A stretch of 64,000 bases of DNA from Pseudoxanthomonas dokdonensis. GTDB taxonomy: Bacteria > Pseudomonadota > Gammaproteobacteria > Xanthomonadales > Xanthomonadaceae. Positions 3,485 to 18,070 of this stretch are shown here, piece after piece (position 1 is the first letter of the stretch; each line of letters opens with the position of its first letter). A program made the position numbers and the translations under genes. The notes beneath the pieces were generated by a model. The model did no database searches, was not told the origin of the DNA, and saw only the letters and a program-made list of their open reading frames with translations. Location of the stretch: positions 372,001 through 436,000 of the forward strand of contig NZ_LDJL01000011.1 of the NCBI RefSeq assembly GCF_001431405.1, written 5' to 3'.

Positions 3485-3555
3485 CGCCGAGCTTGCCCGG
3501 CTGCGGTTGGTTTGAGGGCCGCTTGGCCAGGTATTGCTTGCACTTGGGTAAAAGC

Positions 3556-3577
3556 AGCGGAGCAAGCTCCGCTCTAC
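3556..3577 (-). repeat. GTAG-headed REP-like palindrome, copy 1
   Basis: The palindrome AGCGGAGC-AA-GCTCCGCT is followed by CTAC. Read on the minus strand it begins with GTAG and then an 8-bp stem. This is the layout of the GTAG-type REP elements (SMAG) known from Stenotrophomonas. It lies between the reductase stop and the asnB stop (convergent genes). The same 22-mer occurs near 62.6-62.8 kb in this window. Confidence 0.75.
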
Positions 3578-3587
3578 CAGTAGGAGC

Positions 3588-3609
3588 AGCGGAGCGAGCT
3601 CCGCTCTAT
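3588..3609 (-). repeat. GTAG-headed REP-like palindrome, copy 2 (degenerate head)
   Basis: A second copy lies 10 bp after copy 1 in the same orientation. The stem is AGCGGAGC-GA-GCTCCGCT, and the head reads CTAT in place of CTAC. The two together form a direct doublet. Confidence 0.7.
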
Positions 3610-3639: not shown

Positions 3640-5334
3640 TCAGGATGGGCTGGTCTGGTAGGCGGTGTTATGGACGCCTGCAATAGCGCGGCCTGAAGGG
3701 TCGGCGGCAGCGGCGAAACTGGCATCCCAGGCAATCGCGACTGGTGACGAGCAGGCGATCGACTTGCCGCCCGGCACGGTTTCGGCCGCACCCGGGGTCG
3801 GGAAAAACTGCTCGAACAGGCTGCGGTAGTAATACGCTTCCTTGCTCTGTGGCGGATTGACCGGAAATCGCTTGGCTGCGGCCGCCAGTTCGCGATCACT
3901 GACGTGCTGGTCGGCGTGTGCCTTCAGCCCGTCAATCCAGCCATAGCCGACACCATCGCTGAACTGCTCTTTCTGCCGCCACAGGATCGATTCGGGCAGA
4001 TAACCGGCAAAAGCCTCGCGCAATACCGCTTTCTCGATGCGTCCGTTGGCCTTGTCGACCATCTTGGCCTGCGCATCCATCTTCATCGCCACGTCCATGA
4101 ATTCCACATCGAGGAAAGGCACCCGCGGCTCCACACCCCAGGCCATCATCGACTTGTTGGCACGCAGGCAATCATAGTTGTGCAGGGCATCCAGCTTGCG
4201 CACCAGTTCTTCATGGAATTCGCGTGGGTTCGGCGCCTTGTGGAAATACAGATAGCCACCGAATATCTCGTCGCTGCCCTCGCCCGACAGCACCATCTTC
4301 ACCCCCATCGCCTTGATCCGGCGGGCCAGCAGGTACATCGGCGTCGAGGCGCGGATGGTGGTGACGTCGTAAGTCTCGATATGGCGGATGACTTCGGGCA
4401 AGGCATCCAGGCCTTCCTCGAAGGTGTATTCGAATCCGTGATGGACGGTCCCCAGCGCTTCGGCGGCGATCGCGGCAGCGGCGAGATCCGGCGAACCTTT
4501 CAAGCCGATCGCGAATGAATGCAAGCGCGGCCACCAGGCTTCCACTTCGTCATTCTCTTCCACCCGCTTGCGCGCGAACCGGGCCGCGACCGCGGCGACC
4601 AGCGAGGAATCCAGTCCGCCCGACAGCAGCACGCCGTAGGGCACATCGGTCATCAATTGCCGGTGCACCGCCTGCTCGAACGCCTCGCGCAATTCGCTGG
4701 CACCGACCTGCACGCCTTCGACCGCGGCGTATTCGCGCCATGGCTTGTGGTAATACCGGCTGAGCTGGCTGGTCGAGCTGTCGTAATAATGACCCGGTGG
4801 AAACTGGGCGACGTCGGCACAGGTGTCGACCAGCGATTTCATTTCCGAGGCCACGCACAGACGACCTTCGCGGTCGTGGCCCCAGTACAGCGGACACACC
4901 CCCATCGGGTCACGCGCGATCAGCACCCGCTTGCGCCGCGCATCCCATAGCGCAAAGGCGAAAATACCGTTGAGCCGGTTCAAAAGTTCGTCGATGCCGA
5001 CTTCGGCATACAACGCGTTGATTACTTCGCAGTCGGAGCCGGTCTGGAATTCATACGGCTGGCTCAACGACTGCTTCAGTTCGCGGTGATTGTAGATTTC
5101 GCCGTTGACCGCCAGTGCCAGCCCGCCATCGGCCGAACGCAAGGGCTGCGAACCACCGGCCGGATCGACGATCGCCAGGCGCTCGTGCACCAGGATGGCG
5201 CCATCATCGACGTACACGCCGCTCCAGTCCGGGCCGCGGTGCCGCTGGCGCTGGGAAAGCTCGAGTGCCTGCCGGCGCAGCAGCGAAAGATCATCACCGG
5301 TCTGCAAGCCAAAAATGCCGAAAATGGAACACAT
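3640..5334 (-). CDS. asnB: Glutamine-hydrolysing asparagine synthase B
   Basis: AsnB makes asparagine from aspartate, ATP and glutamine in the cytoplasm. The chosen ATG gives MCSIFGIFG, placing the nucleophilic Cys at position 2 after Met removal, and it has AGGAG upstream. The glutaminase domain covers about residues 1-200 (RGPDWSG, NGEIYNH). The synthetase domain follows, with the ATP-binding LLSGGLDSSL near residue 235 and SGEGSDEIFGGY. The length (564 aa) is normal for the family. A 20-residue in-frame extension upstream is possible but would bury Cys2. The gene lies 251 bp downstream of dapE, and the gap holds an Asn-rich leader frame and a hairpin with a T-run, so expression is probably attenuated by charged tRNA-Asn. 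Confidence 0.97.
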   Translation of the reverse strand: MCSIFGIFGLQTGDDLSLLRRQALELSQRQRHRGPDWSGVYVDDGAILVHERLAIVDPAGGSQPLRSADGGLALAVNGEIYNHRELKQSLSQPYEFQTGSDCEVINALYAEVGIDELLNRLNGIFAFALWDARRKRVLIARDPMGVCPLYWGHDREGRLCVASEMKSLVDTCADVAQFPPGHYYDSSTSQLSRYYHKPWREYAAVEGVQVGASELREAFEQAVHRQLMTDVPYGVLLSGGLDSSLVAAVAARFARKRVEENDEVEAWWPRLHSFAIGLKGSPDLAAAAIAAEALGTVHHGFEYTFEEGLDALPEVIRHIETYDVTTIRASTPMYLLARRIKAMGVKMVLSGEGSDEIFGGYLYFHKAPNPREFHEELVRKLDALHNYDCLRANKSMMAWGVEPRVPFLDVEFMDVAMKMDAQAKMVDKANGRIEKAVLREAFAGYLPESILWRQKEQFSDGVGYGWIDGLKAHADQHVSDRELAAAAKRFPVNPPQSKEAYYYRSLFEQFFPTPGAAETVPGGKSIACSSPVAIAWDASFAAAADPSGRAIAGVHNTAYQTSPS

Positions 5335-5391: not shown

Positions 5392-5421
5392 CAAAAAACC
5401 CGCACCTTGCGATGCGGGTTT
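5392..5421 (-). terminator. Rho-independent terminator in the asnB leader (candidate attenuator)
   Basis: On the minus strand a perfect 9-bp stem, AAACCCGCA / TGCGGGTTT, with an 8-nt loop (TCGCAAGG) runs directly into a T-tract. It lies 28 nt after the stop of the Asn-rich leader frame and 57 nt before the asnB ATG. It is too far from the dapE stop (about 165 nt) to be a simple dapE terminator. The leader segment TGCGGG (5460-5465) can pair with the 5' arm CCCGCA (5413-5418), and the overlapping CTTGCG can pair with the loop CGCAAG. Either pairing is mutually exclusive with this terminator. Confidence 0.85.
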
Positions 5422-5448
5422 CTGGTTTTCGGCTGGTGTTGCTTTTGC

Positions 5449-5544
5449 CTAGTCGCAGTCCCGCAAGTGACGCGCACGATTATTGGCCCGGGTATTGATA
5501 CCCAGGTTGCGAATAATCACGGCGGCGGCGGAATGCGACGGCAT
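5449..5544 (-). CDS. Asparagine-rich leader peptide of asnB
   Basis: This 31-codon frame on the minus strand starts at ATG 5544 and ends at TAG 5449. Its core reads IIRNLGINTRANNRARH. Asn occupies codons 13, 17, 21 and 22 (AAC, AAT, AAT, AAT), i.e. four of the last 19 codons, with a tandem pair. A shorter form from the GTG at codon 9 is possible. No Shine-Dalgarno is visible, but TAGCTT ends 6 nt before the ATG, so the mRNA may be leaderless. A ribosome stalled at the Asn pair would leave TGCGGG, about 12 nt downstream, free to pair with the terminator arm. A ribosome reaching the stop would cover it. It lies immediately before the terminator hairpin and asnB. Confidence 0.75.
   Translation of the reverse strand: MPSHSAAAVIIRNLGINTRANNRARHLRDCD
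5490..5503. repeat. Inverted repeat inside the asnB leader frame
   Basis: GGGTAT-TG-ATACCC is a perfect 6-bp-arm palindrome lying within leader codons 15-19. It could form a small pause hairpin just upstream of the tandem Asn codons, or be a protein-binding site. Its role is inferred only from its location. Confidence 0.5.
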
Positions 5545-5550
5545 GCAGGG

Positions 5551-5580
5551 AAGCTAACCGGTTTTGGCCGGGGCTGGCAA
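5551..5580 (-). promoter_or_regulatory. Putative promoter of the asnB leader transcript
   Basis: On the minus strand TTGCCA (5575-5580) is followed after 18 bp by TAGCTT (5551-5556). The leader ATG begins 6 nt further on, so transcription would start at or next to the A of the ATG. The -35 is good (5 of 6) but the -10 is weak (3 of 6). Confidence 0.4.
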
Positions 5581-5585
5581 GGGGG

Positions 5586-6713
5586 TCAGGCCAGCAATTC
5601 GTGGATCAGCGCGTGATACAGGCCAGGCAGGCGTTCCAGATCCGCCAGCCGGATGTGCTCGTTGACCTGATGGATGCTGGCGTTGACCGGGCCTACTTCA
5701 ATGCACTGCGCTCCCAGCGGCGCGATGAAACGCGCATCCGAGGTGCCGCCACCGGTGCTTTCTTCCGGTGCCGCGCCCGCAAACTCGGCCAGCACCCGGC
5801 GGGCGGTGGTACGCAAATGGCCTTCCGGGGTGTAGAACGGTTCGCCACTGCGATGCCAGCGCAGTTCGTATTGCAGCCCGTGCCGGTCCAGCAGCGCACT
5901 GATCTCCGCTTCCAGTTGTGGCGCGCTCCAGCTCGGGTTGTAGCGCAGGTTGAACAGCACCTCCAGCGAGCCGGGGATGACGTTGCTGGCACCGGTACCG
6001 GCATGGATGTTGGAGATCTGCAGGCTGGTCGGCGGGAAGCTCTCGTAACCGTCGTCCCAGTGGCGCGCGCTCAACTCGTGCAGGGCCGCCATGGCCTGAT
6101 GGATGGGGTTGCGTGCCTTGTCCGGATAGGCGACGTGGCCTTGCACGCCGTGCACCTGCAAGGTGCCGGTCAGGCTGCCGCGCCGGCCGACCCGCAGCAG
6201 GTCGCCCAGCGCCGCGGTCGATGACGGTTCACCGGTGATGCACCAGTCGATTGCCTGCCCGCGTGCGCGCAGCAGCTCGGCGACGCGGCGCACGCCATGC
6301 AGGGCATCGCCCTCCTCGTCCGAGGTCAACAGCAACGCCAGCGTGCCTTGGTGGTGCGGATGCGCGGCGACATAGTGTTCCAACGCCAGCACGCAGGCGG
6401 CCACGCTGCATTTCATGTCCGCGCTGCCACGTCCGTACAGATTGCCGTCGCGGATGGCCGGTTCGAACGGATCGCTGTCCCATGCGTCGCGCGGCCCGGC
6501 CGGCACCACGTCGGTATGGCCGAGCAACAACAGCACCGGCGATCCGCTGCCATGGGTCGCCCACAGATTGTCGACGCCCTCGAAATGCAGGTGTTCGCAG
6601 GCGAAACCGGCGTGTTGCAGGCGCTCGGCCAGCAGCGCCTGGCAACCTGCGTCGTCCGGCGTCACCGATGCGCGGCGGATGAGTTCACTCGACAGCGCCA
6701 GGATCTCACTCAT
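5586..6713 (-). CDS. dapE: Succinyl-diaminopimelate desuccinylase
   Basis: DapE removes succinate from N-succinyl-LL-diaminopimelate in the lysine/peptidoglycan pathway. The 375-residue M20 zinc peptidase starts at [19 protein letters not shown], as in known DapE proteins. Metal-site motifs are visible: [12 protein letters not shown] (~residue 62), GRGSADMK (~residue 95) and TSDEEGDA (~residue 130). GGTSDARFI lies near the C terminus. The first four bases overlap the end of the upstream ArsC-like gene (ATGA), which fixes the start and indicates translational coupling. dapD, two genes upstream, supplies the preceding step. Confidence 0.97.
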
Positions 6714-17512: not shown

Positions 17513-18070
17513 ATGCTCAACGAGATCAAGAAAGACGCGCAGATGCGCATGAACAAGAGCATTGAGGCCTTGCGCCAGGACCTGACCAAGGTCCGCACCG
17601 GCCGCGCCAGCACTGCGCTGGTCGAACACCTGAAGGTCAATTACTACGGTTCGGACATGCCGTTGTCGCAGGTCGCCAGCGTGGTGGTCAGCGACGCCCG
17701 TTCGTTGACCATCACTCCCTGGGAAAAGCCGATGGTCGCCGCAGTGGAGAAGGCCATCATCTCCTCCGACCTGGGCCTGACCCCGAATACCGCCGGCACC
17801 ACCATCCGCATCAACATCCCCGCCCTGACCGAGGAACGTCGCAAGGAACTTTCCAAGCACGTCCATGGCGAAGGCGAGAATGCGAAGGTCGCGATCCGCA
17901 ACATCCGCCGCGACGCCAACCAGCAGGTCAAGGATCTGCTGAAGGAAAAGCAGATCACCGAAGACGACGAGCGCCAGGCGGCCGACGAGATCCAGAAGCT
18001 GACCGACAAGTCGATCAAGGACGTCGATGAAGTGGTCAAGGCCAAGGAACAGGAATTGATGGCGGTCTGA
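17513..18070 (+). CDS. frr: Ribosome recycling factor
   Basis: RRF splits post-termination ribosomes together with EF-G. The chosen ATG gives [20 protein letters not shown] and 185 residues, the same length as the Escherichia coli protein. An in-frame ATG 12 bp upstream would add four residues. KVRTGRAS and the C-terminal long helix are typical. uppS follows 8 bp downstream, starting the frr-uppS-cdsA-dxr unit. Confidence 0.97.

Follow-up and report, generated by a model that had tools for sequence, protein, structure and literature searches.

The minus-strand region which separates a peptidase M20 gene, read as dapE (end at 5586), from asnB in Pseudoxanthomonas dokdonensis contains a short, asparagine-rich open reading frame followed by a terminator-like hairpin, an arrangement which raises the question of whether transcription of the downstream asparagine synthase gene is adjusted to the supply of charged asparagine tRNA. 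Based on comparison with related loci, we consider it very probable that this region represents a ribosome-mediated transcription attenuator which senses asparaginyl-tRNA upstream of asnB. Charging of this tRNA can report asparagine here, since AsnRS scores above the cut-off in this genome (as in 190 of the 198 family genomes overall) and AsnA has no match in it. The asnB homologues of this genome comprise one at E 1e-100 and six weaker ones at E 0.001, a second asparagine synthase being unlikely.

The asnB leader of Pseudoxanthomonas dokdonensis

The features of the locus are given below in the coordinates of the window, i.e., the whole stretch of 64,000 nucleotides that was analyzed.

5575..5580, minus strand: putative -35 element (TTGCCA) of the leader promoter, from the sequence and the clustering of TTGC at -37 to -35 across leaders
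5551..5556, minus strand: putative -10 element (TAGCTT), ending 6 nt 5′ of the leader ATG, from [TC]A...T clustering
5449..5544, minus strand: leader ORF of 31 codons with Asn at codons 13, 17, 21, and 22, from the sequence and conservation in relatives
5479..5484, minus strand: control codons, tandem Asn (AAT AAT), from the sequence and alignment A2 (described below)
5468..5474, minus strand: segment 1 (protector arm), imperfect in the window, placed by alignment A2
5460..5465, minus strand: segment 2 (TGCGGG), 5′ arm of the antiterminator, from pairing and covariation in relatives
5411..5420, minus strand: segment 3, 5′ arm of the terminator and 3′ arm of the antiterminator, from pairing and covariation in relatives
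5397..5406, minus strand: segment 4, 3′ arm of the terminator, from pairing and covariation in relatives
5393..5398, minus strand: T-run of the intrinsic terminator, from the sequence
5346-5342, minus strand: Shine-Dalgarno sequence (AGGAG) of asnB, from the sequence
3640..5334, minus strand: asnB, glutamine-hydrolysing asparagine synthase, the proposed regulated gene, from its domains and sequence

The frame described in the first-pass annotation, with its four Asn codons, is present at 5544-5449, where it translates as MPSHSAAAVIIRNLGINTRANNRARHLRDCD and ends at the stop codon TAG (5451-5449). The hairpin indeed begins 28 nt beyond this stop (gap, 5448-5421) and carries a T-run; its stem, formerly described as a perfect 9 bp, in fact comprises 10 bp including one U.G (5420-5411 with 5406-5397, loop GCAA). 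Likewise, TGCGGG is found after the tandem Asn codons, 13 nt past the last of them (5465-5460), and can pair, as proposed, with CCCGCA at 5418-5413 in the 5′ arm of the terminator. A second proposed pairing, CTTGCG with CGCAAG, can form in the window but was rejected as a general feature, as the bases which precede TGCGGG differ in relatives (alignment A2). The product of asnB harbors Asn_synthase and GATase_7 domains and is assigned to asparagine synthase B by NCBIfam. On the 3′ side of asnB, at window positions 3548-3608, two REP-like 29-nt direct copies (90% alike) were observed, each including a short palindrome, AGCGGAGC..GCTCCGCT.

Among 547 short ORFs (12 to 60 codons) in the window, the leader is the sole one with at least four Asn including a tandem pair (NN). 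A binomial estimate for at least four Asn in 31 codons nevertheless amounts to 0.007 to 0.034, so that the window taken by itself provides weak evidence, the case resting on relatives. The window copy is, moreover, a weak member of the leader set: its antiterminator (helix 2:3) comprises 6 bp, the stem in relatives reaching as many as 10 bp.

Conservation and distribution of the Asn-rich frame

A search for asnB across 198 family genomes (186 with a match at E 0.001) and contigs of named genomes yielded 230 upstream regions, of which 222 were distinct (8 duplicates dropped); 37 of these (L074-L110) belong to a more distant asnB set, while the remaining 185 include the window's own. By a fixed score, 170 of the 185 regions carry an Asn-rich short leader frame; relaxing the score or extending the sequence adds 9 of the other 15, giving a total of 179. 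The leader was absent or undecided in L026 (contig end) and in L043, L054, and L072 (none in 700 nt), and none was recognised within 420 nt in L190 and L205. The same score was reached by 0/185 reverse strands, by Lys in 0/185 regions, and by 6 of 920 Markov resamples; on the coding strand it was also reached by Gln (43/185) and His (11/185), which may stem from these AAY repeats being read in other frames. Named genomes with the leader include Xanthomonas, Stenotrophomonas, Pseudoxanthomonas, Luteimonas, Lysobacter, Thermomonas, Dyella, Rhodanobacter, and Arenimonas. The alignment of relatives, set beforehand as a test of the earlier proposal, upheld it: conservation extends to the frame, its Asn codons, and the alternative pairing, and the pairing co-varies.

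The 163 leaders with a placed ATG have a median of 31 codons and a median of 6 Asn (range 4 to 10). Asn is their commonest residue (19.3%), as is to be expected of leaders chosen for Asn, followed by Arg and Ala. Given that choice, the scarcity of Lys codons is the fair and telling part: the 163 leaders hold 1017 Asn and 13 Lys codons, compared with 993 and 1881, respectively, in asnB. Changes of Asn codons between 97 nearest-neighbour pairs were synonymous in 82 cases and otherwise in 65, and in a wider set of 147 leader pairs they were synonymous in 123 and otherwise in 214. Differences at codon positions 1, 2, and 3 in the 97 pairs numbered 374, 431, and 369, with no third-position bias. 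AAT is strongly over-used in the leaders (475/1017 Asn codons versus 138/993 in asnB), and leader function might therefore respond to the efficiency with which tRNA-Asn reads AAU, queuosine modification of this tRNA being one guess as to how.

Within the order, the 12 loci whose AsnB identity is at least 74% (L271 and L273-L283, including 5 in genomes counted above) all have the leader, while it is absent in 15/15 loci at 68% or less (L284-L298); two further family codes of the order hold it, and the frame occurs in three families. In the class, this asnB type was found in 3 of 104 genomes (E 1e-100), two of which belong to this family; the Asn-rich frame is absent from the third (L272). When 185 class genomes were scanned with a covariance model built from the leader, 24 gave matches at E 0.01; three of these, with E < 1e-14, are from this family, and the others are weak. 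Four of the weak matches (L318-L321) were read, and none resembles an Asn leader. Within the genus, 36 of 37 genomes match at E 4e-13 or better, including this one; nine of the 36 were placed before asnB by coordinates, and most of the nine were in the model.

In the distant set (Shewanella, Vibrio, Colwellia, and others), 7 of 37 loci reach the Asn score upstream of asnB (L077, L079, L080, L081, L086, L095, and L100). These upstream regions are mostly AT-rich, and an Asn leader is unlikely there, the score probably arising from composition. A metagenome-assembled genome labelled Rubrivirga (L088, asnB 64% identical) carries a 4-Asn frame with NLTNANRNP and a terminator-like hairpin approximately 100 to 200 nt before asnB, which may reflect either a misbinned contig or a wider spread.

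Alternative helices and the proposed mechanism

Helices were compared across 169 aligned leaders, one of the 170 having been dropped by an NN/length rule. Alignment A1 contains 53 of the 56 Lysobacter-type leaders (L210, L215, and L219, whose register differs, were left out), and alignment A2 contains 51 of the 57 Xanthomonas-type leaders (4 identical or too long and the extended L068 and L174 left out); 56 of the 169 belong to neither. Segment 2 is complementary to the 5′ arm of the terminator across leaders and co-varies with it, natural variants of this pairing being CAGG/CCTGC and CGGG/CCCGC. Compensatory changes are seen in the protector (1:2), antiterminator (2:3), and terminator (3:4) helices, amounting in A1 to 7/424, 17/371, and 39/424 cells, respectively, each of which was reached by 0/500 shuffles that keep relatedness in. 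By two other measures, helix 2:3 in A1 displays no clear excess (pairs with a change on both sides, reached by 120/500 shuffles; further pair types, reached by 500/500).

The 2:3 pair at A1 columns 35-90 is GC in 37 rows, AU in 16, and broken in none of the 53. Where U is present at this site, the corresponding terminator pair is U.G in 14 of 16 rows and U-A in 2, which indicates that the change mainly serves 2:3. A tree of asnB, built by a quick method from the 95 of 169 rows with asnB at hand (G with C, 78; A with T, 17), implies at least 8 changes on each side of this pair, and the independent, well-supported pairs change together in 4/4 cases (p 0.125 by a sign test). At the base next to it, 3.3 pairs are in agreement, none is opposed, and 4.7 show no difference.

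In A2, helix 2:3 is 93.7% paired and nearly invariant, its single compensatory cell in 506 being reached by 87/500 shuffles. Helix 1:2, a hairpin located directly 3′ of the last Asn codons in relatives, displays paired changes in both alignments; its 5 compensatory cells in A2 are equalled by a control slid by +1, while its pairing (92.2%) compares with 30.5% in that control. Helix 3:4 is paired in 100% and 99.3% of cells in the two alignments. Without a score threshold, each of the 169 aligned leaders has a candidate hairpin whose 5′ arm includes CC[CT]GC, and a stricter terminator finder was weak or failed in 21/170.

Of 164 leaders, 71 have segment 2 at 17 nt and 69 at 20 nt, counted from where the last Asn pair begins; in these 140, a stalled ribosome, whose footprint is taken to extend 15 nt beyond the first base of its P-site codon, would free segment 2, and one at the stop codon would cover it. 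When leaders were folded with a ribosome stalled at the last NN and segment 4 as yet unmade, all five tested 2:3 pairs were predicted in 151/169, four in 9, two or three in 6, and none in 3. With the ribosome at the stop codon, the terminator is predicted in 169/169. The window's stalled fold before segment 4 is predicted at -16.4 kcal/mol; once segment 4 is made, the terminator wins the minimum-energy fold even with a stalled ribosome, and the model therefore needs the usual kinetic head start. Helix 1:2 is usually less stable than 2:3, and in ribosome-free folds, extending from the last NN to just before segment 4, 137/164 leaders prefer 2:3 to 1:2, segment 2 being held in 1:2 (by two or more bases) in 12/164. 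As modelled, a strict rule by which a lack of translation leads to termination fits poorly, and the outcome in the untranslated state is uncertain.

We infer from this arrangement that transcription would begin at or next to the leader ATG, the leader thus being translated from its extreme 5′ end. When Asn-tRNA runs short, a ribosome would stall at the Asn codons and cover segment 1, leaving segment 2 free just past its leading edge; segment 2 would then pair with segment 3 once the latter is made, blocking the terminator and permitting transcription of asnB. If Asn-tRNA is ample, a ribosome positioned at the stop codon would cover segment 2, segments 3 and 4 would form the terminator, and transcription would end before asnB.

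That the hairpin merely terminates dapE or a short RNA, beside an Asn-rich frame which is coincidental, might be suggested by the stable terminator and promoter-like sequence in the dapE-asnB gap and by the only moderately unusual Asn count of the window itself, but we regard this as highly improbable. The recurrence of the frame in nearly all upstream regions and on none of the reverse strands argues against coincidence, and the covariation of segment 2 with the terminator arm contradicts a simple terminator function. Furthermore, the leader is kept at loci where dapE was not found upstream (35 of 66 with enough flank), indicating that the element is not tied to dapE, and a role as terminator of dapE only was rejected accordingly. 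Equally hard to credit is the view that the frame encodes a functional small protein, with any regulation exerted by the peptide sequence (through arrest or as free peptide) instead of by Asn-tRNA supply. While its occurrence in three families of the order might favour such a role, the peptide drifts outside the Asn codons and RNA arms (in the 147 pairs, first, second, and third codon positions differ 720, 693, and 659 times, respectively), and this drift led to its rejection. The residue encoded by segment 2 also follows RNA pairing, Arg giving way to Gln where CGG becomes CAG, and leader peptides had no Pfam match (0/3 tested) and no NCBIfam match (0/2 tested).

A translation-coupled attenuator of a non-specific kind, in which any slowing of the leader ribosome leads to read-through and the Asn codons merely tune the response, appears very unlikely, if marginally less so. 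It would accord with the predicted antiterminator in most ribosome-free folds, from which ribosome loss or slowing could raise asnB; against it, the frame strongly favours Asn, and not Lys, Ile, Phe, Tyr, or His, beside a gene for asparagine synthase in genomes which possess AsnRS. An attenuator that responds to asparaginyl-tRNA remains the preferred reading.

A probable leaderless start and relation to known attenuators

Promoter elements were counted in 125 of the 170 leaders (7 without a usable ATG, 34 without 45 nt upstream, and 4 identical ones were excluded); an internal ATG was taken in some rows (e.g., L045, L046, L144, L166, and L175), which dilutes these counts. In the 125 distinct leaders, 102 occurrences of TTGC begin at -37 to -35 relative to the ATG and 100 of [TC]A...T begin at -13 or -12, a spacing which would place the start site on or beside the ATG. 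Tetramers resembling a Shine-Dalgarno sequence precede 28/125 leaders compared to 115/125 asnB starts, and in 26 of these 28 leaders CAGG sits at the place of the -10 element. The transcript probably starts on or next to the leader ATG, which would make the leader leaderless.

The weaker, second match of the covariance model precedes an ilvC-like frame in 10/10 genus genomes read, including this one (L309, about 1345-1522; G000:C4, about 17845-18021) and nine others (L310-L316, L322, and L323). In this genome, the peptide MLQRHTPLTHDLTTAHPAAAAIIVLVLITSPTGAGRTGV is followed by a terminator and, 68 nt further, by the gene for ketol-acid reductoisomerase, whose product harbors KARI_N and KARI_C. 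The layout is the same as that of the asnB leader, with a similar terminator and like promoter spacing, while the peptide is rich in Ile, Leu, and Val before its stop instead of Asn and the target is ilvC and not asnB. TTGAC lies 35 to 37 nt before the ATG in 10/10 loci read, by which the ilvC leader also looks leaderless; it is a useful internal control. We lean towards the view that the attenuators of this lineage have been rebuilt in leaderless form, with the asnB and ilvC leader ORFs at or near nucleotide 1, such that the race between ribosome and polymerase would be set by ribosomes entering at the free 5′ end instead of at a Shine-Dalgarno sequence.

The ilv, leu, thr, his, and trp leaders of Proteobacteria comprise a short frame enriched in codons of the amino acid that the downstream gene serves to make, and alternative antiterminator and terminator hairpins, the position of the ribosome acting as the switch. 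The asnB leader likewise combines an amino acid-rich frame with alternative hairpins, differing in its asparagine signal, its asnB target, and the probable lack of a 5′ untranslated region; by the sequence criteria applied, it would belong with the trp/his/ilv-type attenuators and be ordinary in its principle of action. The T-box riboswitches of Firmicutes also sense tRNA charging and control premature termination, binding uncharged tRNA directly. Neither the window nor the loci of 10 relatives contained a T-box or any other Rfam family at threshold, the best sub-threshold match being Thr_leader at 19.6 bits (threshold, 55); a known Rfam element (Thr_leader, Leu_leader, or others) was rejected, as the gathering score was not reached. 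Canestrari in 2020 reportedly described leaderless polycysteine leader ORFs of mycobacteria. Such mycobacterial leaders are likewise short frames, leaderless or located upstream, that are rich in a single amino acid and precede the genes for it; they come from Actinobacteria and concern cysteine, the comparison here extending to the layout of the frame. Mycobacterial leaderless and upstream short frames are treated in parts of Shell 2015 (PMC4633059), and the class of leader-peptide attenuators is discussed in sections of PMC2965389.

Searches of the open-access PMC literature listed no leader-peptide attenuator for asnB or asparagine. Within that scope, the asparagine specificity of the proposed attenuator is, to our knowledge, new. 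If the proposed mechanism is true, asparagine would join the amino acids controlled by leader-peptide attenuation, in a group that covers Xanthomonas, Stenotrophomonas, Lysobacter, Dyella, and Rhodanobacter. Well over 100 natural leader variants are available for testing each step, and the leaderless start, if true, would offer a simple system in which to study attenuation with ribosome loading at the 5′ end.
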